Shown here piece after piece: positions 3,187 to 43,627 of a stretch of DNA of 64,000 bases. The notes under the pieces were generated by a model. It made no database searches and was not told where the DNA came from. It saw nothing but the letters and a program-made list of their open reading frames with translations. The position numbers were made by a program, and so were the translations under genes. Positions within the stretch are counted from its first letter, which is position 1. The number at the start of each line of letters is the position of its first letter. Where the stretch lies: IMG/VR virus record IMGVR_UViG_3300033145_001746, positions 32,286 through 96,285 of that record, one strand, 5' to 3'. This stretch comes from a virus.

Positions 3187-5034
3187 CTATATATTTTTAG
3201 GGACATACGCAAGGACAGGTCTTGGAAATAGCGTACCTCGTGGCACATTTGGATTTACTTTAAAACCGCGCGTCTTGTCAAACTTATAAGCCAAATAAGC
3301 ATATATTAAAGCCATAAGTCCATCATTTTGTACCTTACCTTTTATGTATGTCTGATGTGGCTGACCGTATCTCAACACAAGCTTACTCTCCATAGAACAA
3401 CAGTGTTTTACCAGCCATGCAATCTTTTCATAACTAGCCCAAGGAAATCGTATCTTTCCTTTTCTTAACATATCAAACATTTCACCAATGATTCTATCTT
3501 TTTCGACCACAACTTCTAACTCATCTCTGTTATATTTGATCCCACCAGAAACTGAACCAGCACTTCTGACAGTTCTATATTTCTCACCATACTTCTTTTT
3601 AAGCTCGTTGGACAAATCTTCCGCAAAACCAATGTCGCCCATAGCACTTCGGACACCATACAAGCGAAAAGCGTTATCGACAAAATCCTTTTTACTATCC
3701 AAATCCAACACCTTTAATTTTTCGGCAAACTCTATCTCGAATCTTTCTTCATGATCTACGGACAATATAACTCCGCAAGAAAAAGATTGGCCTCTTTTAA
3801 TATTATCAACATCGGGCTTACCGCCCCAGTCCATCCCAAGATATACAATTTTCTCACCCTGGCCAATGTGTTTCGACACTGCTCTATCTGGATCTCTACA
3901 CATGTTATATATTTCTTCAAATGTAATTGGAAGACCTTGACCTGAGTGAAACTCTCCCAAAACTTCGTTGTTGAAAATCATTTCAGAGTTTCTGGTATTA
4001 TTTTCAGGTTTTTCTCTAATAATTACTTCTTTATAAAACTCAGGAATGAAAAGCTGATTAAAGTGGAACCCCACATACTTAGCATCTTCTTTACCTGGTG
4101 TTGGGAGCCACTTACCTCTTTCTACTGCCTCTACTTTATCCTGTTCGTGACCACAGCTTGGACACTTAACAACGTTTTCGTATAGCCAAATGTCATCTTC
4201 CCAAGCAGTGGAGCCAGGAGTGTATAAGAGGAAATAGTTTTTACAGTCCGCACACTTCAAATAGTACCTGCGTTGATCTGATTCTTCCCACATTCCATGA
4301 AACATAGTTCCTTTTTGCCTGGGAGTTCCAAAATATACCTGTACTCCACCAGGCTGCGGCCCGTGCTGGGCACGCGTCAAACACTTGATGGTCTTTGCTA
4401 TGGCCACTTCGCTCATATCCTGAACCTCATCGAAGAAGCATACATCAAATGTTCTACCAAGTACTCTTGTTCCTTCATTACCTATAGATTCACACCACAG
4501 AGTATTTCCATTTTTGAACTGCTTATATCTCAATGCGTCCGTTGCGTCACGAGCCGAATCCTTTTGCGCAGCTATATATGGCTTGATTTTTCCAGGAGAT
4601 CTTCCGTCGGTGAAATCTGCTATCTGTATAGACTCCATAATCATTTTTTCCAGCTTATCCTTAGCAAAACTATGCATCATTTCTAGCTGTGGAAACGCAT
4701 GGATAACTCTGACGGGAGCCACATTATTAACGCCATAAAGACCACTGGCAACCATATGTAACTCCATTGCTGAAGCCATTGTGGTTGCCCCAACCTGTCT
4801 ACCTTTAACTATAACAATAGGCTTTCCTGCATCAGACATTGCAGAAACAGTTATATGTCGGTAGACATCTGCGATAAATTTCCATCCATTACCCGTAAGC
4901 CTAAAAGGTTTCCCATCGAGAGTTAAGAAAGTCTCGGCGAACGTAACGGGGTCAACTTTCATCAACTCTCTTTTTAAAGAATCAAAACTATTTTCTGGTT
5001 TCCACTCATCAAGGACATGTTTAGTTTTTAACAA
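3187..5034 (-). CDS. Terminase large subunit (TerL)
   Basis: This is the packaging ATPase-nuclease that pumps DNA through the portal. A Walker A-like motif GRQVGATTM (about residues 78-86) and Walker B CFFDEVQD (about 199-206) define the ATPase. A four-Cys zinc site (C261xxC264, C291xxC294) follows, as in GpA-type large terminases. The C-terminal nuclease half carries acidic motifs at YLGMDWGG (D402) and at the later GDIGFAEDL and NDGLMAL. The length of 615 residues is normal. There is no intein here, although the gene is a frequent target elsewhere. It lies directly upstream of the portal gene. Its start overlaps the end of the preceding HNH gene by 7 nt. Confidence 0.9.
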   Translation of the reverse strand: MLKTKHVLDEWKPENSFDSLKRELMKVDPVTFAETFLTLDGKPFRLTGNGWKFIADVYRHITVSAMSDAGKPIVIVKGRQVGATTMASAMELHMVASGLYGVNNVAPVRVIHAFPQLEMMHSFAKDKLEKMIMESIQIADFTDGRSPGKIKPYIAAQKDSARDATDALRYKQFKNGNTLWCESIGNEGTRVLGRTFDVCFFDEVQDMSEVAIAKTIKCLTRAQHGPQPGGVQVYFGTPRQKGTMFHGMWEESDQRRYYLKCADCKNYFLLYTPGSTAWEDDIWLYENVVKCPSCGHEQDKVEAVERGKWLPTPGKEDAKYVGFHFNQLFIPEFYKEVIIREKPENNTRNSEMIFNNEVLGEFHSGQGLPITFEEIYNMCRDPDRAVSKHIGQGEKIVYLGMDWGGKPDVDNIKRGQSFSCGVILSVDHEERFEIEFAEKLKVLDLDSKKDFVDNAFRLYGVRSAMGDIGFAEDLSNELKKKYGEKYRTVRSAGSVSGGIKYNRDELEVVVEKDRIIGEMFDMLRKGKIRFPWASYEKIAWLVKHCCSMESKLVLRYGQPHQTYIKGKVQNDGLMALIYAYLAYKFDKTRGFKVNPNVPRGTLFPRPVLAYVPKNI

Positions 5035-23051: not shown

Positions 23052-24200
23052 CTATTCCTCCTCTATATTTGACGCGACCACATCGGTCCACGTTTCTATA
23101 TTTTCTTCTTCATCCAGTTTCTCTGGTACTAAAATTCCAGATTCCTTTGCTTTTACAACTTCACTAAGAATATCGGCGGCTAGATTGTTTTTCTTTATAG
23201 CTTCAAAAAAGTTATCTTTTCCAACATATTTTTGGTCGCCGTAAACATATGTACGATTGTTCGGTCTTTCAACTACACCATACTTAATTCCTAATATACC
23301 TATTTCCATACATCTATCAACAACGCCCTTGGTATATTGTATTCTGAACTCACACTTTCTTTTAGGTGGAGCTACTTTATTCTTGTCAATTCGAGCCATT
23401 ACAACATGACCGATCGGCACATCCTTTTCTGCCCCAATTATCTGGGAGTCTTTATTTGCACGCATAGTGAAATGAACCATCATAGAACAATGGTGATTCC
23501 ATGCTGCTCCACCTGGCGTCTGCTCTGGGTTTCCATAAAGCTGCCCAGGATTTGTGCGAACTTGATTGATTGCGATAAACATAACTCCCGTTTCACTTAG
23601 CAAAGGAATAATTTTACGCAACTCAGGTGGCAGGAACCTAGCCATAAGAGCCATGTTACTTTTACCAGATCTACTAGCAACTTCTAGTGGCGGAGCTATT
23701 GCGGCCACGCTATCCAATACAATAATGCCTAAGCCCGTTGCGTCAGCTCCACCTCTTTCTTTAACAATATCCAGCAATCCTGGTTTTGCCTTTGGTTTTC
23801 CTGGTTCTTTATGTGGCACGCCACACAACTTCTCAAAAATCTCTGCTCCATTATTGGATCTTAGAACCCTAAGTTTTGCGGGACTTGTATCCACCCCAAG
23901 CATTTCTGCCCATCTTTTATCAAAGCTACACTCCGCATCAATGAAATACGCCCAATTCTTGGGATCTTTACCTTGCCACTCCTTAATAGCCATTAAGCTC
24001 ATAAGTGTCTTTCCACTACTTTGCTTGCCAGCATATTGAACTAATCTTCCTCGTGGGTTCCCCCAAAGTCCCAGAATATCATCTAATACATGACTTCCAG
24101 AAGATAATGTTTCTATCGCCTCTATTTCTGCCATGCCATCATCGCCATAGAGTTTTTCCATTTGTATCCAAATAGACTCTTGGCTAGTTTGTTTCGCCAT
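23052..24200 (-). CDS. RecA/UvsX-like recombinase
   Basis: This ATP-dependent strand-exchange protein has Walker A AGKQSSGKT (about residues 57-65), Walker B IIVLDSVAA, and the L2-adjacent motif FIAINQVRTNPG followed by TPGGAAWNHH, as in RecA. The length of 382 residues is normal. It would form filaments on ssDNA coated by the phage SSB and work with SbcC/SbcD and the RuvC-like resolvase. The start overlaps the DnaJ gene end by 17 nt. No intein is present although recA is a common target. Confidence 0.9.
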   Translation of the reverse strand: MAKQTSQESIWIQMEKLYGDDGMAEIEAIETLSSGSHVLDDILGLWGNPRGRLVQYAGKQSSGKTLMSLMAIKEWQGKDPKNWAYFIDAECSFDKRWAEMLGVDTSPAKLRVLRSNNGAEIFEKLCGVPHKEPGKPKAKPGLLDIVKERGGADATGLGIIVLDSVAAIAPPLEVASRSGKSNMALMARFLPPELRKIIPLLSETGVMFIAINQVRTNPGQLYGNPEQTPGGAAWNHHCSMMVHFTMRANKDSQIIGAEKDVPIGHVVMARIDKNKVAPPKRKCEFRIQYTKGVVDRCMEIGILGIKYGVVERPNNRTYVYGDQKYVGKDNFFEAIKKNNLAADILSEVVKAKESGILVPEKLDEEENIETWTDVVASNIEEE

Positions 24201-25167
24201 CTTCTCCTCCTTTTAAAGTGGTATCAAGCTTTTTTAACAAGCTCTTTTGTTCCACTGTAAGTTTGTTCGGTAGCTTAACATTTATTCGAATAAGGTGGTC
24301 GCCGCGATTGTTGAACGGATCTTTCATCCCAGCTCCACGTATTCTAATCATGTTTCCTGGTTGACAAGTAGGTTTTACCTTTAAATTCTTGTCTCCAGAT
24401 ATTGTCTTGACTATTACATCTCCGCCTAACATTGCGGTGAAGATATCAATGGTAACACTACTTTGTATATCCATCATATTTTCTAGTAAAATAAAATCTT
24501 TATGCGGCTTAAAAAGCACAATTACATTCAGATTATGTTCTATGGTAAGTACCGTTCCATAGGCTATGCCTGGAGGAATACTTACTGTAATTTGCTTAGA
24601 AACTTTTTTGCGACCAACGCCTCCACAATCTGTACATGATGCCACAATTTCTTTCCCAAATCCACGGCACTTTTTACATGTAGTAATCATGCGTACAGCA
24701 CCCACTTGGCTACCGATTTGTCCAGATCCTTTACAATTCTGACACGGAGTAGCTGGCTTAAACTGAACCCCAGATCCTTGACAAGTGCCGCACTCTAAAT
24801 TTCCACCTACATCAAGTTTCTTTATACAACCATTAAACGCTTCTTCCATAGAGATAAGAATTTTTCCAGTTCTTATCTCATATCTGTGATGGGTCCTTCT
24901 ACCAAAAGGACCTGAACTAAAAGCTCTCTTAAACAAATCATCTATATTAATGTTGATCTGTCCAAAATCCTCCATTGGAGGTTTCCAGTTATTATTTTTG
25001 AGCGTTTCATATGCGGCAGCTATTTCTTTAAACTTATCTTCAGCATCACCTTTATTATCTTGGTGACGATCTGGATGCCATTTCAAAGCAAGTTCTTTAT
25101 AAATCTTTTTAATATCTGCTTCTGATGCGTTTGGCTCCAAGCCTAGAATCTCACAAGGATCTTTCAT
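24184..25167 (-). CDS. DnaJ-type co-chaperone
   Basis: A J domain with HPD (residues 31-33) is followed by a short Gly/Phe-poor linker, four CxxCxGxG zinc motifs (CGTCQGSG, CQNCKGSG, CKKCRGFG, CTDCGGVG), and the C-terminal substrate-binding domain. At 327 residues it is slightly shorter than E. coli DnaJ (376). It would stimulate host DnaK ATPase; no DnaK gene is in this window. Lodged between RuvC-like and RecA-like genes, it may help load or disassemble replication complexes, as host DnaJ does for phage lambda; that role is inferred. Confidence 0.92.
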   Translation of the reverse strand: MKDPCEILGLEPNASEADIKKIYKELALKWHPDRHQDNKGDAEDKFKEIAAAYETLKNNNWKPPMEDFGQININIDDLFKRAFSSGPFGRRTHHRYEIRTGKILISMEEAFNGCIKKLDVGGNLECGTCQGSGVQFKPATPCQNCKGSGQIGSQVGAVRMITTCKKCRGFGKEIVASCTDCGGVGRKKVSKQITVSIPPGIAYGTVLTIEHNLNVIVLFKPHKDFILLENMMDIQSSVTIDIFTAMLGGDVIVKTISGDKNLKVKPTCQPGNMIRIRGAGMKDPFNNRGDHLIRINVKLPNKLTVEQKSLLKKLDTTLKGGEDGETN

Positions 25168-26475: not shown

Positions 26476-27168
26476 TTACAGGTCTTCGTCTCCGAAATCG
26501 AAAGTGTCGTCTTCGATAGTTGGCTTAACGCCAGCTTCTGTATTAGTGACGGTTTTTGTGCCAACAGCGTACTGTTGACCGGCGGGAGTTGCCCCATTTC
26601 CGCCTACCGGCGCACCCATCTTCTCTGCCACTTCCTCAGGCGTAGAAGGCTGGGTAAACTTGGAAATATCCACTCTTTCGAGAAAGTTCTCAACGAGAGT
26701 TACTTCTTCTGCGGTTATATCCTTCATTTTCGGACTACCCATAACAGTATAGAGAGGTTGTGTTCCCTTAGGGCCACGCTTGACATTGATATCATATGCC
26801 ATAATCTCTCCCCAGCTATGCTTAATCATTTCTCCCCAATCTGGAGAAGCGACATAGTCCTTTACACCCTTGTAGATCTGGCTTCCAATCTCAAGGATTT
26901 TTGTCTGACCGCTTTTGCGATCAATTACTCCTAAATACCAGCGAGTTTGAGCTTTAACTCCGGACCTGCACAAAGGACAATCGTTAATTGCGCATCGGAT
27001 TTTACGGTTACTACCGGTTGCATCCTTGGTCCAGTGTACGACGAATTGAAAAGGATTGGTTACAACCCTTACATTATTATTTCCTTCCACTAGATTCATG
27101 AAATCATTTGGGCCTGAAACGTCTCCGTCATCCCAGCTTGCTAGCTGTCCATATTTTACTTCGGCCAT
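26476..27168 (-). CDS. Single-stranded DNA-binding protein (gp32-like with zinc site)
   Basis: A zinc-binding pattern His45, Cys59, Cys64, Cys67 (VVHW ... RCAINDCPLCRSG) resembles the H-x-C-x-C-x2-C site of T4 gp32. The core contains YLGVIDRKSGQ and ILEIGSQIYKGVKDY, and the C-terminus ends in an acidic tail (TFDFGDEDL), typical for SSBs that recruit partner proteins. The length is 230 residues. The ribosome site AGGAGG is strong and a promoter-like pair lies upstream, consistent with high expression. It heads the recombination cluster. Confidence 0.85.
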   Translation of the reverse strand: MAEVKYGQLASWDDGDVSGPNDFMNLVEGNNNVRVVTNPFQFVVHWTKDATGSNRKIRCAINDCPLCRSGVKAQTRWYLGVIDRKSGQTKILEIGSQIYKGVKDYVASPDWGEMIKHSWGEIMAYDINVKRGPKGTQPLYTVMGSPKMKDITAEEVTLVENFLERVDISKFTQPSTPEEVAEKMGAPVGGNGATPAGQQYAVGTKTVTNTEAGVKPTIEDDTFDFGDEDL

Positions 27169-28158: not shown

Positions 28159-28676
28159 TTTCGTTCACCATAAGTTTTTTCATCATCGGAACTTCCAGCA
28201 GTTTGTGAAAAACCAGATGCTCTTTGATGTTTATACTCTCCTCTAAGACGTTCTTTCATATATTGATGTGCTTTTAAAAACCAATCGTGCCGATGATCAA
28301 AATTCTTTTTTACGACATAAGCTTCATTATATCTGTTTTCAGCATCAATGAAGTCTTGATGGCTTTCTGAATACGCCTCTCTATCACGTACAGTTGTGTA
28401 GCCCTGATCTCTGGCAGCTAGAAATAATCTTTGCTTGATTGTATTTCTACTTAACTTAGTTCTAGCCTCTAACAATGTTAAAGTAGATAAAATTTCACTA
28501 CACCTATCAGCTGCTCTAAGATATCTGGCCGCCAGTTTCTCTGCATTTGGAATATCCAAATTGGCATCTCTGGGCATAGAGTGTGCCAACTCAGTAAACT
28601 CCATTATATCAATTGATAATGGATTAAAATTATCCAGATCCAAGGCTTGTCTAAACGTCAGTGCTGCTTCGCTCAT
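28152..28676 (-). CDS. Hypothetical helical protein, possibly UvsY-like
   Basis: This 174-residue, almost wholly helical protein has a central charged pattern (KLAARYLRAADRCSEILSTL, then LSRNTIKQRLFLAARD) and a C-terminal FLKAHQYMKERLRG. Size, helical composition and position just upstream of SSB and RecA-like genes recall T4 UvsY, the mediator that loads UvsX on gp32-coated DNA. I see no decisive motif, so this is a suggestion only. Confidence 0.45.
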   Translation of the reverse strand: MSEAALTFRQALDLDNFNPLSIDIMEFTELAHSMPRDANLDIPNAEKLAARYLRAADRCSEILSTLTLLEARTKLSRNTIKQRLFLAARDQGYTTVRDREAYSESHQDFIDAENRYNEAYVVKKNFDHRHDWFLKAHQYMKERLRGEYKHQRASGFSQTAGSSDDEKTYGERKW

Positions 28677-28944
28677 CTTTCAAGCTCCTAACCCAACTTT
28701 CCATGCGCCTCAAACGCTGGTTGATCATAAGATTTTGCAAAAACAGAATGGCAGCCCAAGCCACTTCTTTACCAAGTGGCGGGCGAATTACTGTAATACA
28801 ACCCTCTAAATCAACATCAAACATATCGTGGAACATATTTTTACCAGAATATGTTCCATTCGTAAAACTTTTAACAAGTTGGTTATAATATTTAAATTCT
28901 TCTTTTGTTATCTCAACTTGCTTGAAATCTATAATTTGAAGCAT
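28651..28944 (-). CDS. Small hypothetical protein (97 aa)
   Basis: No family was recognised. Sequence features include an N-terminal beta-like part, a Phe/Met-rich middle (GKNMFHDMFDVDLEG) and a charged helical tail. It overlaps both neighbours (26 nt into the next gene, 1 nt with the previous), so translational coupling is likely. Confidence 0.45.
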   Translation of the reverse strand: MLQIIDFKQVEITKEEFKYYNQLVKSFTNGTYSGKNMFHDMFDVDLEGCITVIRPPLGKEVAWAAILFLQNLMINQRLRRMESWVRSLKDERSSTDV

Positions 28945-30543: not shown

Positions 30544-33500
30544 TTACCCTCCATAAACCTTTTCTAATTTTCTAAGCATTAAGGTCTTAACTCCATTAAA
30601 ATCGCTTACTTGGCAAGTTGCTCTCAATGGCCTGCCGATTCCAATTACTTTTTTGGCCATTTTGTATTGATCAGGCCACACAGTAAGTTCTGTTTCTGCC
30701 CCAGCAGTATCTTCAACCAAATATTTCATCATCATTTGACCAATATATTTACCGGTTTTTATCTTAAATTCTCTCAAGAAAGCCTTAGCGATTACCTCTA
30801 CAACCACCTGCTGTCTATCTGGAAGCATTCTGAGTCTAGATATTGCCGTAACATTATATCCTGTGAAGAATCCTGGAAACATATCATTTATAGATCCAGA
30901 GACAAGCTCTCCCAATACTTCTTGTTCATGTCTCAACATTTCCTGTTTCGACCATTCTTGTCCTGGTATACTGGCTGGGAAATCTTCAAGAGCCATTTCC
31001 TCAGACTGATACCCATCTTTTTTAAGGCTCTTTTTCAAAAAGACATTCATCTTGTCTCTTACTTTTTTACCCTCATCATGGACACCCTTGCGAGAAAGAT
31101 GAAAGGAATCAAAGCAGCCGGCCTTGGCCAGAACCTCTAGCTTCGTTTTATTAACGATTCTAGCATTAACTCTAAACAAAAAGTCTTTAAATGATGAGAA
31201 TGGCTGATTTTCTATCAACTGCTCAAGAGCTTTAACTCCCATGCCTTTAACGGCAGCTAGGCCCATTACAATAGTTTGCTCATCTAAGACTTCATAGCCA
31301 GCGCTACTTTTATTGATGTCTGGTGGAACAATCTTAATTCCCAAACGCCTACATTCCGCCTTGGCCATATTTATCTCATCTTCTCTATTGAGACCACCCT
31401 TAGAAGTTTTGACCTTCAAATAGGCTGCTAAGAAGGCTGCAGGGTAATAACACTTAAGATATGCTGTTATATACCCATTAATCGAATAGAACACCGCATG
31501 AGAGTTGGCAGACACCACTCCACCATCTAAAATATAATTGTGGTTTTTATCATCAATTTCCACATAATAAGTATCGTGTAAGCCCAAATTTTCAACAGTT
31601 TGTATAGTAGTATAATTTTCTTCAGCCTGTTTTCTATACAAAGTGGTTCTAGGATGCCAATCTTGCTCTCCGCTAAAAAACCGCTCTAATCTAATACGCT
31701 TGCGAGGTAAAAACATCATAGGTTTTTCATAAAAATATTCATATATCTTTTTAACATCATTTTTTGCTCTAAACCAAAGAGAATAAGAATTGCCACTCTT
31801 TAATACGCCTACATCAAATAATCCATGAATATTGCTATGTAAGTGATCTTTAATGATTTTTAGCATATTATAAGGACCCCTGAACCCCAAATTAACTCTA
31901 GGTCCCTTATAGTTGTGTACACACACACTTCCATCTCCATCAAAATATCCCAACAAAAAGTGTTTAAAAAGATGGTCAGGTATGTTGTGTAAATTAATAG
32001 GTTCAGTATTTTTATTTCTAGGTATCCCTAGTTTTTGTAAATTATGGGCCAACTCCATAGAGTTAACTGTCGCAATCATAGTTCTGGAATTATCTCTATA
32101 TCTGCTACGCAATTGCCAATTTTCAATACCCAAAAATTCATATAATTTTACCAAATGTTTGAAATCATGGGTAGATATTTCAACGCCAAGTTTTGTTTTA
32201 GATACAGAACCATCGGCAGCTATGAAACCAAACCAGTAGGCGGCAACTTCGTTATCAATTTTATCAAACATAAATTTCGGTTTTGTATAAGAATTATAAC
32301 TTTTTTGAACAGTTTTATATAAAGATCCATAGCCGTTTTTATTTTTAATCCAATCTACGTTATTAACTGGAACCTTTTTAATCGGCAATGCTTTGCTAAC
32401 TATCTCTGATAACTCTTTATATCCAAAAGGAGTTAAAAATTTATGATTAGGGGTAACATTAACGATTCCCCCATCTTCAAATACTATCTTCCATACCTCC
32501 ATTTTACGATCCGTTTTACCTATTTCTTTTATTTTCGTGACAATATTTTTTTCAGTATCTTTGTTTAAAGATAAAACCTCGTCCCCTTTTTTAAGCTGCC
32601 TTAACGACTTCCAACCAGACTCTGTTAGTAAAAAGTTCAATGATTTCAGGCACTTATTGAATCCATATCCTGAAAATTTCTCTACCACTTTATCCCACAC
32701 TTCTTTAGAAGCTTCGTAGTCAGTGCCATGTTTCTTCATCATTCCCTCGATGAAGTCAACTTCTAATTGTAGAGCTAGTTTTGGATCTTTACCTTTTAGT
32801 TTCGTAAGTTTACGCAGTCCGTCTGCTTTGTTGAGGTCCCATCCTGCTACATCTTTGGCAACATCCATAAGTTGCTCTTCCATAATACATAAACCATATG
32901 TATGTGCTACACTCCTCTTCAAACTAGGATGTAGATACTCCACTTTTTTAACGCCAAATCTACGATCGATATATTCTTGTCTTTCATGTTTAGATGACGG
33001 CCTACCAAGGGCATTTATGGCAGCAATATCCAAGATATTATTAGGACGAATTTTTTTACAAAGTGACACCATCATACTAGACTTTCCTAGTTGGAACACA
33101 CATTTTGTATGACCCTGTTGAATCATCTTATATGTTTCTTTATCATCAAGAGGAATATTCTCCATATGTTTAGGAGCATTTTTAATTCCTAATCTACGGA
33201 CATTTTTCAAAGCCTCATCGATAATATCTAAGGTAGAAATAGCTAAAAAGTCCATTTTAACCAAGCCGTTAGCTTCACAACGGTTTTTTTCATATTGTAC
33301 AGCTATTGTACCATTTTTATCAATGCGTAATGGCGCAAACTCAACAATGGGGACATCAGATACTACCATTCCTGCGGCGTGGGTAGAATACTCTTTTGGC
33401 ATTCCAATGATTCTAGTAGCGTGTTCTATAAGCTCTGGTGCCAACTCCGCAAATTCTCGCAATTTAGGCGACGCTTCAAGAGACTTCACAATAGATCTTT

Positions 33501-36372
33501 CATTTTCAGGGATAAGATTCTTAATAGTTTCTGCCACTCTAACCGAATTCTTGTATCTTTCATCATCTGTATTGCCCTTAATTAAATTGGGCAAAACGCT
33601 TCGCATAGATCTAATAAGATCTGGGATGACAGTCTTAGGTGTATATGTATTGATGTTCGATACTTGGGCACAATGAGCATGTCCATATTTGTTTCTAACA
33701 TATTCTTGAACAGCATCTCTACCCACGGAAGTGAAATCCGTATCAATATCTGGTAAATCTGTTTTATATGCGTTTTGAAACCTCTCGAATAAAAGGTTGT
33801 ATTCAATTGGGTCTACGCCATGAATACCTAATAAATATGCGACCATGCAGCCCCCTACACTATTATGTGCCGCAAAATTTTGAGTAATATAAGAGTGGTC
33901 TTCATTTACTTTAATATCATAAACTTTATCGTGCCCTGCAACTTCAGTTATTTGCTTAACTTTAGTAAAATATCCATTATCTTGTGTGAACCTCGCTGTT
34001 TTGTTGGTTTCTAGTCCAGTAAAATGCAGTGCATAGGATTTTTGATGATTTACTATTTTGCCATTATATAAACTAGTCTTGGGTTGAGTTATGACAACAG
34101 ACGAAGGAATTTTCAGATATAAGAGTGCTTCTTTGATCTCTAATACCAATGCTAAACTAACTGTTCTGATAATTTCTACACCTTGTTTAGTAGTATGTCC
34201 ATCAGCATGTTTATAGCCCAGCATAAGGGCTAGTAAATTTTCTTTGCTCAGATTTCTAAAATTACACAAGTGTTTCGTAAACGAACTGTTTTGATAATTT
34301 TTAAATATACTTTTAAACAAGTTAACCAATATTTTATCAAATATTTGGATTTGGACAGCATTTTCTTTTTTATTGTAGACCTCACTTTTAAAGCCTAGAT
34401 TTGAAAAGTATGATGTTATCCTTTTAATGCCATAAATATCTTTTTTATGTAAAGAAAAACCTATATAGTAAGAATTTCCATGTTCTGAAATAAAACCGTC
34501 TCCAATCCATCTCCCTAAAACATAAAACCAATCTTTATCTTGAAGAATAAATCTTTCATATGTGCGTTTTTCTACATTTTTTCGGTTTTTCCAATCGTCA
34601 AAGGAAACTTCTCCTAAATAAGTAACTATTTTTTCAATAGAGTGCGGCGACGCTTTAGTTTTCCCATTTTTTATGTTGCTAACAGTTTTAATTTGAAGCC
34701 CAGTATGTTGCGAAACCTGTATAATAGAATACTTATTTGATAATTTTATATTTTTAGAAATATTAGTATTAGAAACTTTATATCTTATTCTACTATTTTG
34801 TGTAAAATCGGCTAAATCGATAGGAGCCGTTGGCCTTATTTCTCTGGTTGGCCAAGGCATAAAAAGCAAGTTTCCTAATTTTAACTCATCTGCGCGAATC
34901 CATTCGGGATCCTCATTAACATTGCGTGTACCAAATAACTCATGATTTTTAGTAAAAACAAGGTCATTGAACTGAAAATCTGTTTTAACACGCAGCAAAT
35001 GTTCTTCTGGCAAACAATTATATTCAAATGTGTTGGAAACACTAGATATTCTTCCAGTATGTGTGTAGACCTCGTCACCAATATTAATTTTATCTATGTT
35101 TACAAACCCGTTTGAAGTTAAAATCTTTGTTTCTTTAATCGTACAGCCACGACCCACGCCAACCAAAATGCCATGTTCTTTAGCCCATTTAATAAAATCT
35201 GCCGTAACCAACATATAAGAAGAGAAATTGTTTCCTTCAAGGATCTTCAATTCCTTTTTAACTCGTTCCCACCTCTCCTTTTTTTTGTCTGGCTCCATAT
35301 GGCTAAACTTTTCCTTAAAGCCTTGTATCACTTTATAGCGCATGTACTTCATATCTAAAGACATTTTCTCTGGCATCTTTACAGTTTTACACCATTTTAT
35401 AAATACATCTGCATCTGGTTCTTCGCGAGGATTAAATATTGGTAAGTGATTACCAATAGTCTCCATGTAATCAGGTGGATCACATTGGTTGGAAATGTCG
35501 ACAGTACTACGTAATGCTAGGTCAGCAACGGTAGACCCGTGATGTTTTTCTATAAACCTATATACTTCATCCCCGCCTTTAAAATAGAACTCATCTGATC
35601 TATCTATTCTATAGCCATATCTTTCAGGATCATCAACACGCTTTTTAGCATTTATAGCCATAAGAATATCATGAGTCTTGTCCCATTTACTTGTCATGTA
35701 GTGAGTATCTACTCCAACTACGATTGAAATGCCTAGTTTCTGACCAAGATTTATGAGCTGTTTGTTGAGAAAAACTTGATCTATATAATCATCTTTCAAC
35801 GCATGTGGTTGGATTTCCATATAAAATCTATCACCAAAGATTTTCTGTAATCTCTGAGCAATTTCAGTGGCTCTATCATAATCTCCATTATAGATTGGCT
35901 CAGCTAATATGCCACCACTACATGCGGTAGTAACAATTAAACCTTCTGAATATTTCTCTAATACATCCCAACTTATTCTTGGGAAAACTCTTCCCATGCT
36001 GACCACATGATGTTGAAACCCTATATAATTTAATTTAAGCAGGTTTTTATAGCCCACTTCGTTTTGGGCCAAGACAATCATATGCTTTCTTTTTTCGGTT
36101 TTCTTTCTCTTTATTTTAGCATTTGGATCTATTGGCAAGTAATCATACGAATGTACAAAATATATTTCGCACCCTGGAATAAATTTCACTCCAGTTCTTT
36201 TATATGCCTTAAAAGCATCATAATGGCAGGCAAGTGTGCCGTGATCTGTAATAGCCAAAGATTTTTGACCCATTTCTTTAGCGGCATTAAACAAATCGTC
36301 TACATCTGCCAAGGAATCGAGCATCGACCCAAGATTTGAGTGACAATGAATATTAACAAATTCTCTAAACAT
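30544..36372 (-). CDS. dnaE: DNA polymerase III alpha subunit precursor with two inteins
   Basis: This is the replicative polymerase. The precursor has 1942 residues; exteins sum to about 1131, close to bacterial DnaE (1160). It has an N-terminal PHP domain (NIHCHSN, ITDHGTLACHYD, PGCEIY), catalytic Asp motif LPDIDTDF after intein 1, fingers region, GYGFNK|SHAVFYS around the second intein site, and a C-terminal OB-like part. Intein positions are residues 410-837 and 1241-1623, both in highly conserved polymerase motifs (GRG|S and FNK|SHA). No sliding clamp, clamp loader or replicative helicase is in this window. Function requires both inteins to splice. Confidence 0.95.
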   Translation of the reverse strand: MFREFVNIHCHSNLGSMLDSLADVDDLFNAAKEMGQKSLAITDHGTLACHYDAFKAYKRTGVKFIPGCEIYFVHSYDYLPIDPNAKIKRKKTEKRKHMIVLAQNEVGYKNLLKLNYIGFQHHVVSMGRVFPRISWDVLEKYSEGLIVTTACSGGILAEPIYNGDYDRATEIAQRLQKIFGDRFYMEIQPHALKDDYIDQVFLNKQLINLGQKLGISIVVGVDTHYMTSKWDKTHDILMAINAKKRVDDPERYGYRIDRSDEFYFKGGDEVYRFIEKHHGSTVADLALRSTVDISNQCDPPDYMETIGNHLPIFNPREEPDADVFIKWCKTVKMPEKMSLDMKYMRYKVIQGFKEKFSHMEPDKKKERWERVKKELKILEGNNFSSYMLVTADFIKWAKEHGILVGVGRGCTIKETKILTSNGFVNIDKINIGDEVYTHTGRISSVSNTFEYNCLPEEHLLRVKTDFQFNDLVFTKNHELFGTRNVNEDPEWIRADELKLGNLLFMPWPTREIRPTAPIDLADFTQNSRIRYKVSNTNISKNIKLSNKYSIIQVSQHTGLQIKTVSNIKNGKTKASPHSIEKIVTYLGEVSFDDWKNRKNVEKRTYERFILQDKDWFYVLGRWIGDGFISEHGNSYYIGFSLHKKDIYGIKRITSYFSNLGFKSEVYNKKENAVQIQIFDKILVNLFKSIFKNYQNSSFTKHLCNFRNLSKENLLALMLGYKHADGHTTKQGVEIIRTVSLALVLEIKEALLYLKIPSSVVITQPKTSLYNGKIVNHQKSYALHFTGLETNKTARFTQDNGYFTKVKQITEVAGHDKVYDIKVNEDHSYITQNFAAHNSVGGCMVAYLLGIHGVDPIEYNLLFERFQNAYKTDLPDIDTDFTSVGRDAVQEYVRNKYGHAHCAQVSNINTYTPKTVIPDLIRSMRSVLPNLIKGNTDDERYKNSVRVAETIKNLIPENERSIVKSLEASPKLREFAELAPELIEHATRIIGMPKEYSTHAAGMVVSDVPIVEFAPLRIDKNGTIAVQYEKNRCEANGLVKMDFLAISTLDIIDEALKNVRRLGIKNAPKHMENIPLDDKETYKMIQQGHTKCVFQLGKSSMMVSLCKKIRPNNILDIAAINALGRPSSKHERQEYIDRRFGVKKVEYLHPSLKRSVAHTYGLCIMEEQLMDVAKDVAGWDLNKADGLRKLTKLKGKDPKLALQLEVDFIEGMMKKHGTDYEASKEVWDKVVEKFSGYGFNKCLKSLNFLLTESGWKSLRQLKKGDEVLSLNKDTEKNIVTKIKEIGKTDRKMEVWKIVFEDGGIVNVTPNHKFLTPFGYKELSEIVSKALPIKKVPVNNVDWIKNKNGYGSLYKTVQKSYNSYTKPKFMFDKIDNEVAAYWFGFIAADGSVSKTKLGVEISTHDFKHLVKLYEFLGIENWQLRSRYRDNSRTMIATVNSMELAHNLQKLGIPRNKNTEPINLHNIPDHLFKHFLLGYFDGDGSVCVHNYKGPRVNLGFRGPYNMLKIIKDHLHSNIHGLFDVGVLKSGNSYSLWFRAKNDVKKIYEYFYEKPMMFLPRKRIRLERFFSGEQDWHPRTTLYRKQAEENYTTIQTVENLGLHDTYYVEIDDKNHNYILDGGVVSANSHAVFYSINGYITAYLKCYYPAAFLAAYLKVKTSKGGLNREDEINMAKAECRRLGIKIVPPDINKSSAGYEVLDEQTIVMGLAAVKGMGVKALEQLIENQPFSSFKDFLFRVNARIVNKTKLEVLAKAGCFDSFHLSRKGVHDEGKKVRDKMNVFLKKSLKKDGYQSEEMALEDFPASIPGQEWSKQEMLRHEQEVLGELVSGSINDMFPGFFTGYNVTAISRLRMLPDRQQVVVEVIAKAFLREFKIKTGKYIGQMMMKYLVEDTAGAETELTVWPDQYKMAKKVIGIGRPLRATCQVSDFNGVKTLMLRKLEKVYGG
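31504..32652 (-). mobile_element. DnaE intein 2 (383 aa, LAGLIDADG)
   Basis: It begins with Cys (CLKSLNFLLTESGW) after GYGFNK and ends DGGVVSAN before Ser of SHAVFYS. The penultimate residue is Ala rather than the usual His, though the terminal Asn is kept. Endonuclease motifs are WFGFIAADGSVS and LLGYFDGDGSVC. The site is four residues downstream of the split-intein site of cyanobacterial DnaE (before CFNK), so it is a distinct insertion point in the same motif. Confidence 0.92.
33862..35145 (-). mobile_element. DnaE intein 1 (428 aa, LAGLIDADG)
   Basis: It starts with Cys (CTIKETKILTSNG) after VGVGRG and ends NFAAHN before Ser of SVGGCMVAYL. Removing it restores the universal DnaE motif GRGS. 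Block B is FTKNHELFG. The endonuclease motifs read VLGRWIGDGFIS and ALMLGYKHADGHT; the second is somewhat degenerate. An HTH-like stretch (YSIIQVSQHTGLQIKTVSNI) precedes the first motif. Confidence 0.93.
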
Positions 36373-36693
36373 TTATTTCCTCTTATTCAGTTGCTCTACA
36401 TATTTGATAAGAGCCGTTTCAAACACAGCCAAAAACTGTGCTTTGTTAGGCTTTTTTAAGGCAAACCTGACTTCCTTTAACCTTTTTACTCCTGTTATAG
36501 CAAAGTCGGGATTCTCTATTTTAAGCAGGCAAGTCTTATTAAACGAAAAAGCTGGTTTGCCCATATGTGCTAGACATGCTATTATTTCGTTACCCAGTTT
36601 AACTGGTAGTCTATATACATATGCATTGTGTCCACAAGAACAATTTTTTGGAGATCTTTTAACGATTCCAAGCTTTTTTAACTTTTTATCCAT
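36373..36693 (-). CDS. Small hypothetical protein (106 aa)
   Basis: A basic protein with a CSCGH motif near the N-terminus and a helical C-terminus (FLAVFETALIKYVEQLNKRK). No family was recognised. Its stop abuts the dnaE start, so it may be translationally coupled to dnaE. Confidence 0.5.
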   Translation of the reverse strand: MDKKLKKLGIVKRSPKNCSCGHNAYVYRLPVKLGNEIIACLAHMGKPAFSFNKTCLLKIENPDFAITGVKRLKEVRFALKKPNKAQFLAVFETALIKYVEQLNKRK

Positions 36694-36699
36694 TTTGTA

Positions 36700-37080
36700 T
36701 TAATCTGGTCTCTGCATAGTTAATTCAACGTCCTGGTTCTCTCCAGAATGGATACCCAAGGCTCGGACCAGATCTCCATCCCCTTCGTTATCTCTTCCAG
36801 CTTCTAATACCACTTTAATCTTATCTTGCTTCACAGTAAAATTACTAACAGTTAATTCATGTGCGCTAGTCGTCACAGCTGTATGTGAGTTTCTTAATGA
36901 CGCACTTATCGTCGATGAGTCAGCCGCCGTCGCATGGAGTTCTAGTGACTCTAAAACGTCTGAGATGTCGCCGTCTCCAGCTCTAATATCATCCTTACTT
37001 GCTTCTAATACTACTTTCACGCTATCTTGCTTAACCGTAAAAGTAGCAATGCCAAATCCTTGTACTACTCGTGTTGCCAT
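36700..37080 (-). CDS. Hypothetical protein with internal duplication (126 aa)
   Basis: Two related halves are visible: FTVKQDSVKVVLEASKDD followed by GDGDISDVLESL, and FTVKQDKIKVVLEAGRDN followed by GDGDLVRALG. The repeats look beta-rich with an acidic loop. A tandem-duplicated small domain may assemble or bind pairwise. No known family was recognised. It lies between the trigger-factor homologue and the gene before dnaE. Confidence 0.5.
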   Translation of the reverse strand: MATRVVQGFGIATFTVKQDSVKVVLEASKDDIRAGDGDISDVLESLELHATAADSSTISASLRNSHTAVTTSAHELTVSNFTVKQDKIKVVLEAGRDNEGDGDLVRALGIHSGENQDVELTMQRPD

Positions 37081-37090
37081 TTTTTCACCT

Positions 37091-38491
37091 CTATCCTAGT
37101 GGGTTTTCGGGAATTTCATAAGTATCATCAGCTTCCACCGATACTTCTTCTCCCTTAATTGTTATATGAGCCTGCGATAAAATCATGTCCATTACTTTCT
37201 TATGTTTCAAAATGCCGAACACAGCATCCAACATCCCCTCTTCTCGTAGTTTCTTTTGTAGTATAAGCTTGCTCACACCTTTAAGCTCAGCTTCTTTTTC
37301 TAGCAGACCATCAAACTCTTCCTGTGTTACTCTAATTCCTGGCTCCGCATCATATACAGCATCTAGTATGAATGTTCTTTTTACATTTCTTACTGCCATT
37401 TTCTTTATATGTTCAAGTATCTGAGCATCTGGACTTTCCATATTGAGCTGGGCAAGCATATATTTTTCTTCATCATCAACCCAACTAAGGGGAACCTCAA
37501 AAGCATGTAGATCGAGAAGCTTATCAACTATAATTTCTTTTAACGACTCCTGTTCTTTCTTGGAGGCTTCTTGCTCGGCACGCTCTTTAAACACCTTCAT
37601 TAGATCTTCGAGTGAAGGAGCCTGCATTCTTTCAACAAATTCTTCATCTGTAGGATCCGTCACAGTTATAATAGAGTTGATGGCAACGTGTACATCTGCC
37701 TCTACACCCGCATGTTCTTTAAGTTGCTCTGGAAGAGTAATTTTCTCTATGAGAGAATCGCCAGCTTTTCTACCAACAAGGTTTTCACCAAAAGGTGGTT
37801 CCTGTCCAGCACGGATCTCAAACTTGTGATCGTCGCCAGAAGATATCACCTCTTCTCCTACTTGTACTGAGAACGTTACTGAAACAATAGATTCTAGAGC
37901 TACTATATCTGCTTCAACTTCGGTCACATGTTGCCTTTTCGCATCTGTCACATAAGCTTCGATGATTTGATCTCTATCTACTGTTTCTTTTTCAAGTTGA
38001 AGACCAACATATCCAGTTGGCGCAATAGATGGCTTGATTTCCAAAGTGATGTCACATGAAAAAGTACCATCTATGTGGAACTCTGCATCGTCTACTTTCG
38101 GTTCATTTAAAGCATGAAACTTGTTTTCATAACAGGCATGTAGATATCCCTCTTGAGAAAGCATACTTGACGCCGCTTTTTCTATATCTTCTTTACAATA
38201 TGTTTCAACCAGAGCTTTTGGAGCCCTTCCACGTCTAAAACCTTTAATTGATGTTTTTTTACTAACGGACGCGGCGGCCTTATCAAAAGCCATCTTCACA
38301 GCATCTGTATCAAAAGTTATGTGTATTTTTCTGTTAAGACCCTCCAATTCTTCGACAGTAGCAACATGGTGCCATTCTTGTACTTCTTCTCGTATATCTT
38401 CTGCCACCACTTCTTTTTTAACCTCGCCAAGAGGCTTTGGCAAATGTTTGCCGGTTCTCTTCTTAGTTTTGCTTCTCTTCTTAACCATCAT
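37091..38491 (-). CDS. tig: Trigger factor homologue (ribosome-associated chaperone)
   Basis: The domain order is that of bacterial trigger factor. The N-terminal ribosome-binding domain has the signature GFRRGRAP (residues 84-91; GFRxGxxP in hosts), followed by SMLSQEGYLHACYENK and EIKPSIAP. The middle FKBP-like domain has PPFGENLVGRKAGDSL. The long helical C-terminal SurA-like domain includes VPLSWVDDE and the IKKMAVRNVKRTFILDAV arm. It is 466 residues versus 432 in E. coli, with about 40 extra basic N-terminal residues. It may bind ribosomes and fold phage proteins during infection. ATGATG gives two start choices; the 4-nt overlap with the preceding gene favours coupling. Confidence 0.9.
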   Translation of the reverse strand: MMVKKRSKTKKRTGKHLPKPLGEVKKEVVAEDIREEVQEWHHVATVEELEGLNRKIHITFDTDAVKMAFDKAAASVSKKTSIKGFRRGRAPKALVETYCKEDIEKAASSMLSQEGYLHACYENKFHALNEPKVDDAEFHIDGTFSCDITLEIKPSIAPTGYVGLQLEKETVDRDQIIEAYVTDAKRQHVTEVEADIVALESIVSVTFSVQVGEEVISSGDDHKFEIRAGQEPPFGENLVGRKAGDSLIEKITLPEQLKEHAGVEADVHVAINSIITVTDPTDEEFVERMQAPSLEDLMKVFKERAEQEASKKEQESLKEIIVDKLLDLHAFEVPLSWVDDEEKYMLAQLNMESPDAQILEHIKKMAVRNVKRTFILDAVYDAEPGIRVTQEEFDGLLEKEAELKGVSKLILQKKLREEGMLDAVFGILKHKKVMDMILSQAHITIKGEEVSVEADDTYEIPENPLG

Positions 38492-40533
38492 TGCTCCTTA
38501 AAAATTTGGCCTGTTTTATTTCGGGCTAACTCAGCTCTTTTCCTCCAAGAGTCCCAAAATAAAGAATCTGAATCTCCAGTCATCTCTTCGTTGAGAATTC
38601 TATTTATAATACTTTGTAATATCATAGACCTAAGTCTGATTATTCTTTGTATGGGCGCATGTGTCGGATGTCCTGACATAATCAAAGCTTCTACTTTCAC
38701 CTTATCTCCAGGAATTAATATAGAGTCTTTAGAAAGCCTAATAGACTGCCAATCATAAGAGTTCACGCTGTTAACATGATTGTAGTACCTATCCGATGTT
38801 TTATAAATACTATATATCTTTACCATTCTTGGTGTATGTGAACTTGTCTTTGATCGTACCCGCGTTTTGTTTGCTATGCGACCGTTACTATCAACGCTGG
38901 ACACAAAAGTTATTTTAGGACCACCTGAAAATTTTGGCCGGCAACAAAACCAACTTAAATCTTTTAAGTCTTTAGTATTTGGATCTATTTTATGTAGCTT
39001 ATGGATGTTATTTTCTATCATCTTAAACCACTCTTGTAGAAACGAGAAGTGTATAGCAGCCTCAGAACCTCTATGCGTGTTGGTCATTTTCTTAGTGGTT
39101 TGACCAGGATAGCGAGCCTTTTCTTTTTCGGTCATATTTCTTTGATAAGAGGACCAACCGAAAAAATATCTATCTGCATCACGTCTATATCTCATCATCC
39201 AAGAAATTGCTGCCTTATAAAATAGCCAAGTCATGAAACCTGAAGAAGATTTCTTATTGGTTCTAGACATTTGTATGATAACTTCACCTATCAATAAATT
39301 CAGACGTTGAGCAGAAACAATCTTACTAGATGGATCATCTTCTGATGTGGTTAAGTTATCCTTAAAAGTTCCAAGGCTCCGCTTATCTTGATTAATCCAA
39401 GAATCTAGCTTATTAATCTCTCTCTTCATCCAAATAGAAATACTTGGTAATCCAGTCAGATGACCGGATTTACCCTTGAAGCCAGATTTCATTCCGAGTG
39501 CTGACTTCGGAGTAAAATTAGTGTCGCAGAACGGACATGTCAAGGGCAAATTGTACAGCGTTTCTGGTGGCTCTTTAAAAGATTGAGTATCCTTAGTTAA
39601 AGAAAACTTTTTAAGTGCCCCACTTAGTTTATATCTACTTGGATCGAATGTACTATAATCTACACAGGTTAGGGGCACAAATTTTCCTTCGCATTTGTCA
39701 TTAGGACATATACAGGTGACACCTATAAAATAAGAAAAACTATTTGCTTTCTGGCTCAACTTTTCAGTCTGTGCGGCTTCTATAAAATTTCCCTGAGCTT
39801 TAAGGTTACATACATTTAATAACAGGTTTTTTTCTAAATCCTTACATCTTGGACACTCGTACTGTTTATCAGAGTGCCACACTAATGGAGTTTTATAACT
39901 TATGACCTTATTAGAGGCCAAGCAATATGGGCAGGCTAGTACAGATACAAATTTATATCCAAGGTCATTTCCAACTTCGCGGATGGTCTCGTTCTTTATA
40001 GACTCTATTATATATCCGCCTGGTTTTTTAAGAAAACTTGTTTTGGCTCTCCACTTCCCAGTTAAATAAACTTCTAGTGATGAACCAACTTTCTTAGAGA
40101 CCTTAACTATACGAGACTTACCAAAGGTCGTGTTCTCGATACCTCCCACAATCTTAGCATCTCTTTTGTCTTGTGTCGTAAATAATGGAAACAAAACAGA
40201 ACGATGTATTGAAGAACGCCACTTTACTCTGTCAAACCAAGTTTTCCCAAAAAGTAAAACAGCATTGGGAAGGATCCAGTTATTGTATAAGTCAGTATTT
40301 GATAATATAGTTTCCCAGTTATCTGGATCTCCAATAATACGATTAAACTCATCCACAGAATCTATTTTGTCAAACACTTTCATGTTCAACACTTTCTGCG
40401 GGACGGGCCAACTGCCGTTATTTGGTGAAGTTTGTTCTATAGCCCTTGCCTTTTCCTCTTCAAAAAGGAGTTCTTCCGGTTCAAGATCGGCAGCATGTTT
40501 GGCGAGCCAGTCTTTAATTTGCTCGTCTGTCAT
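38488..40533 (-). CDS. Large Cys-rich protein of unknown function (681 aa)
   Basis: Several zinc-like cysteine sets are spread through the protein: CPYC, CPRCKD, CICPNDKC and CPFCDTN. A basic middle part (WLFYKAAISWMMRYRRDADR) and a basic C-terminal region follow. No polymerase or helicase motif was found. It lies immediately after the sigma-like gene (adjacent stop and start) and before trigger factor, so a link to transcription or translation takeover is possible. Its zinc modules suggest nucleic acid binding. Confidence 0.5.
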   Translation of the reverse strand: MTDEQIKDWLAKHAADLEPEELLFEEEKARAIEQTSPNNGSWPVPQKVLNMKVFDKIDSVDEFNRIIGDPDNWETILSNTDLYNNWILPNAVLLFGKTWFDRVKWRSSIHRSVLFPLFTTQDKRDAKIVGGIENTTFGKSRIVKVSKKVGSSLEVYLTGKWRAKTSFLKKPGGYIIESIKNETIREVGNDLGYKFVSVLACPYCLASNKVISYKTPLVWHSDKQYECPRCKDLEKNLLLNVCNLKAQGNFIEAAQTEKLSQKANSFSYFIGVTCICPNDKCEGKFVPLTCVDYSTFDPSRYKLSGALKKFSLTKDTQSFKEPPETLYNLPLTCPFCDTNFTPKSALGMKSGFKGKSGHLTGLPSISIWMKREINKLDSWINQDKRSLGTFKDNLTTSEDDPSSKIVSAQRLNLLIGEVIIQMSRTNKKSSSGFMTWLFYKAAISWMMRYRRDADRYFFGWSSYQRNMTEKEKARYPGQTTKKMTNTHRGSEAAIHFSFLQEWFKMIENNIHKLHKIDPNTKDLKDLSWFCCRPKFSGGPKITFVSSVDSNGRIANKTRVRSKTSSHTPRMVKIYSIYKTSDRYYNHVNSVNSYDWQSIRLSKDSILIPGDKVKVEALIMSGHPTHAPIQRIIRLRSMILQSIINRILNEEMTGDSDSLFWDSWRKRAELARNKTGQIFKEQ

Positions 40534-41091
40534 TTATACCTTCCTTGCTTCCTTTAACTTTCTTCTTATGGCGCGTGTAAGGCCCCATGGAGTAAAATTT
40601 TCGTCTTTCGCAACATCGGCTATCAAGTCGCCACTAACGAAAATGCGTAGCATAATGCTCTTCCATCTATCATCCCAACTCTTTGTGCGTTGCTCAAGTT
40701 CAATTTTAAAGTCCGGATTTGGACAGAAATCAGCTTCATCGTATATTATCGCAAATTCTGTTCTGCCTCGAATACTTTTGCGACATCCATCAATGGCCCT
40801 ATTTCTTCCTACGGTCCATAAAAAAGTAGATAGTTTTGCCCCATATTTTGGGTCATATTTTACTATAGCTTCTAACATAGCAAAAGAAATATCTTGCTTC
40901 AAATCTTCGAGATCCCATCTGGCGGCGACAGACCAACTACAATTGTCGCGCGCAAGCATAGATATATGAACTTCCATTTCTTGAAACACTTCAGCAAACC
41001 CGGTCCCATCTGATGTATCTATATAAACAATTTTATCATTCACGGCCACATTTCCAGCAAACCGCCCTTTTTTAGTATTAATAGTTTTCAA
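40534..41091 (-). CDS. Sigma-70-like transcription factor
   Basis: The central part matches sigma region 2: DLKQDISFAMLEAIVKYDP followed by GAKLSTFLWTVGRNRAIDGC, the segment that binds RNA polymerase and the -10 element. A C-terminal basic helix-turn-helix-like stretch (LIADVAKDENFTPWGLTRAI) may be a degenerate region 4. The protein is 185 residues, in the size range of small alternative sigma factors. It would redirect host RNA polymerase to phage promoters. Adjacent genes follow without gaps. Confidence 0.75.
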   Translation of the reverse strand: MKTINTKKGRFAGNVAVNDKIVYIDTSDGTGFAEVFQEMEVHISMLARDNCSWSVAARWDLEDLKQDISFAMLEAIVKYDPKYGAKLSTFLWTVGRNRAIDGCRKSIRGRTEFAIIYDEADFCPNPDFKIELEQRTKSWDDRWKSIMLRIFVSGDLIADVAKDENFTPWGLTRAIRRKLKEARKV

Positions 41092-41097: not shown

Positions 41098-41862
41098 TTA
41101 CCAGGTGTTAAGACACGGACTTTTAAAATCACACCAATCGCATAGCCTAGTAGGCTTTGCTATCCATCTTTCTTCATCCGTGATGCGCTGGGCATATTCA
41201 ACGAGGGATTTCTTTTCTTTTAAGACATCTTCCTTATTGAAGTCGTAAGAGATTAGCATTCCGCCAAATCTCATCATAACATATGAACCTCTAAATTTAT
41301 CTACGTCAGGATATTGATCTAAGAGGTAGATGCCGTATGTTCTAAGCTGAAAAGGTTCCATATACTTTGGGTTCTTATTAGTTTTGTAATCTTTAATATG
41401 AAAGGTTCCGTCTTCATCCATGTCAAGTCTGTCAACATAACCCCTTACACTAAATTCTTTGGAAAGAGGTATGTTAAAGTCTGCTTCGAGACTAATTATC
41501 TCTGATCCAATTCCGTCAGACTCCATTCGTTTAAGGTAATCTGCCAAAAGATCTCTAGCTTCGACTAGCACGGACTGTACGATGGAGACGCCTCTTTCTT
41601 TTTTCATAGCTTGGCGCTGCTTTTGGAAAGACTCTTTCATCATTTTCTTCAAATTTAAAGAGCCCCTATCCTTATCTATTTTAAAATTTTCATGAAAATA
41701 TTCTAGTGCGCCATGTACTAAAGTTCCCAGATCAAAGTGGAGCCACTCTTTTCTGGGAAGTTTTTCTATATAATTATAATAATATTTCCGAGGACATTGA
41801 AGATAGGTTTTAACTCTGGATGCGGACAACACCAGTGTGATATCTTTCATTTTTTTTGACAT
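41098..41862 (-). CDS. Cas4/RecB-type PD-(D/E)XK nuclease with Fe-S cysteines
   Basis: The PD-(D/E)XK core is visible: LVHGALEYFHE (His), VDRLDMDEDGTFHIKDYKTNK (D...E/D-x-K). A first cysteine at YLQCPRK and three at LCDWCDFKSPC give the 4Fe-4S pattern of Cas4 and AddB-like nucleases. The length is 254 residues. It is likely a 5-prime to 3-prime or end-processing exonuclease for recombination. No Cas1, Cas2 or array is nearby, so a CRISPR role is not supported. Two HNH genes lie upstream, overlapping its start by 16 nt. Confidence 0.85.
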   Translation of the reverse strand: MSKKMKDITLVLSASRVKTYLQCPRKYYYNYIEKLPRKEWLHFDLGTLVHGALEYFHENFKIDKDRGSLNLKKMMKESFQKQRQAMKKERGVSIVQSVLVEARDLLADYLKRMESDGIGSEIISLEADFNIPLSKEFSVRGYVDRLDMDEDGTFHIKDYKTNKNPKYMEPFQLRTYGIYLLDQYPDVDKFRGSYVMMRFGGMLISYDFNKEDVLKEKKSLVEYAQRITDEERWIAKPTRLCDWCDFKSPCLNTW

Positions 41863-42878: not shown

Positions 42879-43627
42879 AAGTTTTCTCTAAAATTGTTTT
42901 TGACATTTAATTTTCCTATATAATTTGTAAATTCTTTCTTATCATATTTCGCACTCTTTATAAGATTATCTTTCTTTTCGAGCCATTGATGATTTTCTGG
43001 AGCAAAAGCTAATTTTATTTGTTCTTCACAATTAAAATCAAAGGCTGATAGTGGAAAAATATGGTCAATATGATAATTTTCTCTCTCTCCTGGACACGGG
43101 CCAAGATGTTTTATGATAGCTTCATAGTTGACGCCATACTGAGAAATCTTTTTCTTTTTAGATTTGATAGCATTTATAAAACGACTCCTTAATATACATC
43201 TTATTCTATAATTGGAATCTGTATTATATCGATGGTTGTGTAAACATTTTTGACAGAATCTTACTTTTCCATCAGTTTTCTTTATTACTCTAATATCTCC
43301 ACAAATAGTACACTTACGAAGTGGCCTTTTATAACATTTTTGACAAAGTGGTTTTCCGTTATTTTTAGACCAGATAGGGGAGTTTTCCCCGCACTTAAAA
43401 CACCGATTTTTAGGAGGATTGTAGCAGGAACTACAAATTAACTTATTACCAATAATTTCTTTTATAACTTTAACTTCTCCACATTTTGAGCATATTTGTT
43501 TTGGACGAATATATTGTTTATAATAATTCTTCACATATTGTCTATGATTACATTTACTACACTTGCCAAAGCTAGAACATTTTTTAGTTATAAATTTGGT
43601 TCCACCGCATTCAACACATTTTTTCAT
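42875..43627 (-). CDS. Zinc-knuckle HNH homing endonuclease (shorter of tandem pair)
   Basis: The build is the same with about five zinc-knuckle units, then GPCPGERENYHIDHIFPLSA and FAPENHQWLEKKDNL. It is 250 residues. Its ATG follows directly on the TAG of the preceding virion gene. It is very similar to the 41847 gene in the nuclease half and differs mainly in the number of N-terminal knuckles, which suggests duplication plus loss or gain of repeat units. Confidence 0.87.
   Translation of the reverse strand: MKKCVECGGTKFITKKCSSFGKCSKCNHRQYVKNYYKQYIRPKQICSKCGEVKVIKEIIGNKLICSSCYNPPKNRCFKCGENSPIWSKNNGKPLCQKCYKRPLRKCTICGDIRVIKKTDGKVRFCQKCLHNHRYNTDSNYRIRCILRSRFINAIKSKKKKISQYGVNYEAIIKHLGPCPGERENYHIDHIFPLSAFDFNCEEQIKLAFAPENHQWLEKKDNLIKSAKYDKKEFTNYIGKLNVKNNFRENL

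Follow-up and report, generated by a model that had tools for sequence, protein, structure and literature searches.

Trigger factor is a chaperone at the nascent-protein exit of the bacterial ribosome and the first chaperone met by a bacterial protein; peptide deformylase is another exit-tunnel factor. Jumbo phages have been reported to carry DnaJ, DnaK, HSP60, HSP10 and HSP20, and no trigger factor is named in the accessible parts of those reports (moraphages, PMC12619734; PMC7824862). As described there, a phage DnaJ encoded without DnaK is predicted to recruit host Hsp70, and the DnaJ genes are sporadic or recently acquired. Huge phages have been shown to encode IF, EF, RF, rpS21, rpS1, L7/L12 and peptide deformylase, with no chaperone or trigger factor named in the main text (PMC7162821), and no trigger-factor analogue was detected among the viral proteins of a Southern Ocean virome (PMC8407431). 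Our search of the open-access literature found no published phage trigger factor, and priority is therefore not proven.

We analyzed a stretch of 64,000 nucleotides (the window) from IMG/VR record IMGVR_UViG_3300033145_001746, and we identified in it an old, functional-looking viral branch of this well-known chaperone, whose gene belongs to the core set of a lineage of huge phages. The protein resembles bacterial trigger factors (Escherichia coli, 1w26/2vrh; Thermotoga maritima, 3gty) in its fold, in its domain order of ribosome-binding domain, FKBP-like domain and chaperone arms, and in its GFRxGxxP docking loop. In contrast to them, it lacks the peptidyl-prolyl isomerase (PPIase) signature, carries an IPENPLG tail and a basic N-terminal extension, and is encoded beside DnaE, whereas bacterial tig lies beside clpPX. 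Like the described jumbo phages, the lineage carries phage-borne folding helpers, but its DnaJ is core and syntenic; like the translation genes of huge phages, its products would act on the host ribosome, and peptide deformylase is common to both. SbcD-like genes are shared with Bacillus phage G (Donellivirus) and Moorella phage MTATph1, and an SSB-like protein with phage G as well; no trigger factor was found in either of these two genomes. The features of the locus are listed in Table 1.

Table 1. Positions in the window of the trigger factor (TF) gene, its domains and associated genes
Feature	Position	Strand	Remarks
Terminase large subunit	3187..5034	-	phrog_675, 1.4e-60; marks the contig as tailed phage
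Phage DnaJ, syntenic partner	24184..25167	-	J domain with HPD, Cys-rich zinc centre, C-terminal domain
Phage single-strand DNA binding protein (SSB), syntenic	26476..27168	-	Locus comparison
97-aa lineage marker protein	28651..28944	-	Query for motif-unbiased search
Phage DNA polymerase III alpha (DnaE), two inteins	30544..36372	-	Downstream of TF, same strand
106-aa conserved protein	36373..36693	-	Between TF and DnaE; homologues in 10/27 loci
126-aa conserved protein	36700..37080	-	Directly after TF; homologues in 11/27 loci
Phage TF gene, 466 aa	37091..38491	-	TIGR00115, Pfam, PDB matches, AlphaFold and Foldseek
C-terminal tail IPENPLG, residues 460-466	37094..37114	-	Conserved in the window's clade, consensus EIPENPLG
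C-terminal chaperone body, residues 283-440	37172..37645	-	Trigger_C; AlphaFold model
FKBP-like PPIase domain, residues 190-282	37646..37924	-	Active-site signature lost in the window's clade
Ribosome-binding domain, residues 41-155	38027..38371	-	Pfam Trigger_N; Foldseek to 1oms
Ribosome-docking loop KGFRRGRAP, residues 83-91	38219..38245	-	Best-conserved stretch in viral relatives
N-terminal extension, residues 1-40	38372..38491	-	Lineage-specific; basic in residues 1-26, predicted disordered
Shine-Dalgarno AAGGAG	38494..38499	-	2 nt before first ATG, 5 nt before second
Cys-rich 681-aa protein	38488..40533	-	Stop overlaps TF start; structural model of low confidence
Sigma-70 region-2-like protein	40534..41091	-	Pfam, 3.6e-11
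PDDEXK/Cas4-like nuclease	41098..41862	-	Conserved upstream marker of the cassette, 27/27 loci

An earlier note on this DNA had called the gene a full-length trigger factor, and profile and structure comparisons bear this out. The reading frame contains no internal stops and matches the NCBIfam equivalog TIGR00115 (tig) at 1.5e-56 and 192 bits (cut-off, 180.2), over positions 1-410 of the 410-position profile. Pfam recognizes Trigger_N (3e-23, residues 45-172) and Trigger_C (4e-15, residues 293-438), and PDB trigger factors align with residues 40-446 at an E value of about 1e-21. The AlphaFold model, built from a 42-sequence alignment, has a mean pLDDT of 89 and a pTM of 0.74, with low confidence only in residues 1-40 and the last 15-20 residues. 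In Foldseek its best match is E. coli trigger factor 1w26 (6e-23), and 2vrh and T. maritima 3gty are also found; a search of BFVD, which holds predicted viral protein structures, gave no match at E values up to 0.001. The note had further claimed that all three domains are kept, and as folds they are: a linker helix (residues 156-189) leads from the ribosome-binding domain to a confidently predicted FKBP-like fold, matched by the trigger factor PPIase domain 1l1p (7.9e-4) and by SlyD (6e-4), and the two-armed C-terminal chaperone body is present according to Trigger_C, the model and Foldseek matches to 1w26 and 3gty. The claim does not extend to the FKBP/PPIase active site, the signature of which is missing.

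Two ATG codons stand in tandem at the start of the gene, and the Shine-Dalgarno spacing suggests that the second, at 38488, is used, giving a protein of 465 residues. Since AAGGAG ends 5 nt before this codon, the N-terminal extension is probably translated. The basic N terminus of about 40 residues described earlier is real, with 11 K/R and one D/E in residues 1-26, but it is not conserved: among the viral trigger factors, at most that of locus L016 has a comparable one.

The gene lies between the PDDEXK nuclease and DnaE, and both of these neighbours are present in 27 of 27 phage loci. The deep order of the context is PDDEXK nuclease, trigger factor, DnaE, SSB and then RuvC/DnaJ/RecA, and the wider block is a replication/recombination module. 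The sigma-like and zinc-rich neighbours mentioned in the earlier note are indeed present, but its proposal of a block for control of gene expression is weakened, as this pair is a lineage-specific insertion in the window's clade (homologues of the 681-aa protein occur in 8 and of the sigma-like protein in 11 of the 27 loci) while the deep context is a replication module. The low-confidence model of the 681-aa protein gave no fold match. This gene order shows co-inheritance, not shared function. Within DnaE, the inteins have Hint/LAGLIDADG signatures, and several relatives have open reading frames of 1120-1130 aa at this place, consistent with an intein-free DnaE.

A search with the 97-aa marker protein recovered 80 loci, on contigs as long as 480 kb. 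Of the loci with sufficient surrounding DNA, all but L211 have the trigger factor at the same place. When whole contigs of at least 100 kb were searched, it was found in 22 of 23; the one without it (G060, 102 kb) is also without DnaJ. These contigs include a few near-duplicates, and none of the records is classed as complete. Across 47 genomes the pairwise divergence of the trigger factor tracks that of DnaE (Mantel r, 0.966), SSB (0.956) and DnaJ (0.932), which argues for long vertical inheritance. In close pairs its dN/dS is about 0.10-0.15, with dS near saturation. No INPHARED record matched a relative of the marker protein.

The ribosome-docking signature GFRRGRAP reported in the earlier note was confirmed at residues 84-91. 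We set aside the docking-loop conservation computed from our first loci, which had been found with that motif and were therefore biased, and instead used 35 viral trigger factors gathered through the 97-aa marker without use of the motif. In E. coli numbering, G43 and R45 are present in 35/35, G47 and K/R48 in 34/35, and F44 in 32/35. The loop is the best-conserved 8-residue stretch of the protein (0.90, against a mean of 0.60), with the lineage pattern GFRxGK. Residue 46, within the docking triad FRK, varies: the window protein has R there, whereas many distant relatives have P, E or T. That this loop is the strongest conserved element, though the rest of the protein has diverged to about 20% identity, suggests continued ribosome binding.

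Conservation of the loop is also what speaks against an alternative in which the protein works away from the ribosome, as a holdase for assembly of the replisome or virion, and keeps the loop for another reason. Its invariable place beside DnaE in the replication module, the DnaJ in the same module, the conserved chaperone body and the clade-specific IPENPLG tail, which may bind a phage partner, would all fit such a role, and T. maritima trigger factor has reportedly been proposed as an assembly chaperone for complexes; we nevertheless regard this off-ribosome role as rather unlikely.

The PPIase site contrasts with the docking loop. The FKBP_C signature is present in bacterial trigger factors and in viral clades B and C but absent in the clade of the window: no match was obtained for the window protein at E values up to 1, or for those of loci L010, L014 and L015 at E values up to 10. 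In this clade SFIPGFE is replaced by EPPFGE (a 3-residue deletion), I195 by E and F233 by V; F198 and F233 are positions that matter for PPIase activity. Because the altered segment is itself conserved (PPFGENL), the domain has been remodelled rather than being in decay. Conservation of the C-terminal chaperone body extends to all clades: every trigger factor record has a Trigger_C match, and among the proteins of the window clade 34 of 192 positions do not vary. Trigger factors that have diverged to about 20% identity amount to a natural experiment on the parts under selection, in which the docking loop was kept and which suggests that the PPIase site is dispensable.

The same observations bear on whether the phage protein mainly displaces host trigger factor from uL23, its own chaperone activity being secondary; variants of this idea would have host nascent chains misfold, or access of host SRP/SecA and deformylase change. 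In favour of displacement, conservation is highest in the docking loop, the window clade has lost the PPIase signature, and some lineages have added a basic N-terminal extension, which could strengthen binding to the ribosome. However, a pure competitor would need neither the chaperone body, conserved in all clades, nor a phage DnaJ. The data favour the folding of phage products over displacement of host trigger factor, and displacement as the main function is in our judgement improbable; it would follow from binding and need not be the purpose.

The earlier note did not mention that the phage encodes a DnaJ, that relatives carry a peptide deformylase or that the PPIase signature is lost. DnaJ is encoded in 22 of 24 trigger factor records; the contigs of the other two stop about 5.5 kb beyond the trigger factor. 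The HPD motif is intact in the window DnaJ and in all the J domains of relatives that were read; the window protein is divergent, scoring 211 bits, below the bacterial DnaJ equivalog cut-off of 377. No HSP70/DnaK was found in the 24 trigger factor records or in 21 mostly large records, no GrpE scored over cut-off in records of the lineage, and GroEL is present in 2 of 30 records. Peptide deformylase occurs in 24 of 30 records, in most cases on the same strand as the trigger factor and 9-13 kb upstream of it, and was not found in the window's fragment or in three records of its clade. Relatives that have the set of deformylase, trigger factor and DnaJ, and in which no HSP70 was found, would therefore have to borrow DnaK.

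On balance, we think it probable that the phage trigger factor, docked on host ribosomes, folds phage proteins and that its clients pass to phage DnaJ and on to host DnaK. Such a gene would have been captured from a bacterium long ago and then inherited as a core gene of the lineage. Its GFRRGR loop would dock on uL23 at the exit tunnel of the host ribosome, and the protein would cradle emerging chains and keep aggregation-prone phage proteins foldable, in the window clade as an ATP-free holdase without prolyl isomerase activity. Its place in the replication module hints at early expression and at clients in the replisome, and the likely first clients would be large replication proteins of the same gene block (DnaE with its inteins, SbcC and GyrB). 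Clients needing more help may pass to phage DnaJ, which would recruit host DnaK. Several points count against this reading: trigger factor was found in 10 of 10 bacterial control genomes, so that the host presumably already has its own and any benefit of a phage copy is hypothetical; residue 46 of the docking triad varies in distant relatives; and our searches found no cultured phage of the lineage. A more ambitious version, which we hold only tentatively, is that deformylase, trigger factor and DnaJ form a dedicated nascent-chain pathway, inherited vertically and dependent on host DnaK, that rebuilds the ribosome tunnel exit in favour of phage proteins, and in which the trigger factor of one clade has become isomerase-free and acquired a tail for a phage partner.

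The core status of the gene and its pairing with DnaJ are the surprising parts of the finding. Inheritance of a core trigger factor together with DnaJ suggests that these viruses take over early folding in the infected cell; if the lineage keeps both as core genes, control of early folding, beyond translation, belongs to phage take-over. It is very improbable that trigger factor and DnaJ serve to stop host chaperones from acting as infection sensors or to hold defence proteins inactive: DnaJ is reported to mediate phage sensing by bNACHT25 (PMC12169576; cited in PMC12619734), and phage DnaJ is conserved here, but no link between trigger factor and defence was found, and such genes are usually variable accessory genes rather than core genes of a replication module.

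The source virus record (98,856 bases) contains phage terminase and portal genes (portal, phrog_16240, 1.5e-17). A single-protein search found no relatives of the window trigger factor, and a search of viral contigs with a trigger factor alignment found 31 loci. Eight are clearly close, with 38-55% identity, and the others have 21-32%. Bacterial relatives are 22-29% identical, and no close bacterial trigger factor pointing to a host was found. In an IQ-TREE analysis of 64 rows, all 34 viral trigger factors split from all 30 bacterial ones with support of 99/96; lacking a root, and with bacterial sequences selected because they were close to the query, the tree shows one viral group relative to this sample. 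The earlier note had named misassembled host DNA as a refuting case, and conserved synteny excludes it. That the gene is host tig in a misassembled or mislabelled contig has a negligible chance of being right, even though opened INPHARED tig matches are host DNA and phrog_26774 and loci L033, L037 and L040 resemble host tig adjoining prophages (PMC6811365), because the same gene stands at the same place upstream of phage DnaE in dozens of independent viral contigs, and because the window gene lacks the clpP/clpX/lon neighbours that mark the host tig locus, has phage DnaE, nuclease and sigma genes beside it, lies in a contig with terminase and portal, and is less than 30% identical to any bacterial trigger factor found.

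Tblastn searches for cultured-phage homologues in INPHARED gave only matches consistent with host DNA. In the records that were opened, host genes are present, either tig-clpP-clpX(-lon) or others; the remainder are unannotated, mostly faecal scaffolds labelled Bacteriophage sp. Among the phage-labelled records containing bacterial tig-clpP-clpX DNA are MT83xxxx, OR84xxxx and CAKLQH020000005. We rejected phrog_26774 as evidence of a phage trigger factor, since its best scores are to bacterial-type proteins, probably from prophage flanks; the family appears to be built from host tig genes. L033, L037 and L040 were likewise set aside as host tig that adjoins a prophage or is interrupted by one. 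In L040 (G001:C1:21764-21946), the first ~60 codons of a host-like tig are followed by unrelated sequence just after GFRKGKAPRKMIE, and the break lies near a tRNA-like 3' end, a possible prophage integration in tig. In L017 (9950-11304), the trigger factor gene is split by one frameshift near 10408-10423, reflecting sequencing error or decay.

Several other genes of the window were recorded. A tRNA nucleotidyltransferase family protein is encoded at 11866-12642, yet no tRNA genes were found in the virus record. Two genes separated by about 27 kb (49915-50568 and 21943-22713) look like the parts of a split DnaG primase, the first encoding a zinc-ribbon protein and the second a separate catalytic core. 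Homing-type endonucleases are numerous (8404-9303, 9294-10118 and 41847-43627), including two tandem LAGLIDADG genes, and among these entries, just upstream of the trigger factor cassette, are two Cys-rich proteins of related sequence. The window also encodes a class V aminotransferase of the cysteine desulfurase type (53813-54937), a GyrB-type topoisomerase carrying an intein (57081-60302) and an Eco29kI-type restriction endonuclease (62682-63302; Pfam, 2.8e-58).
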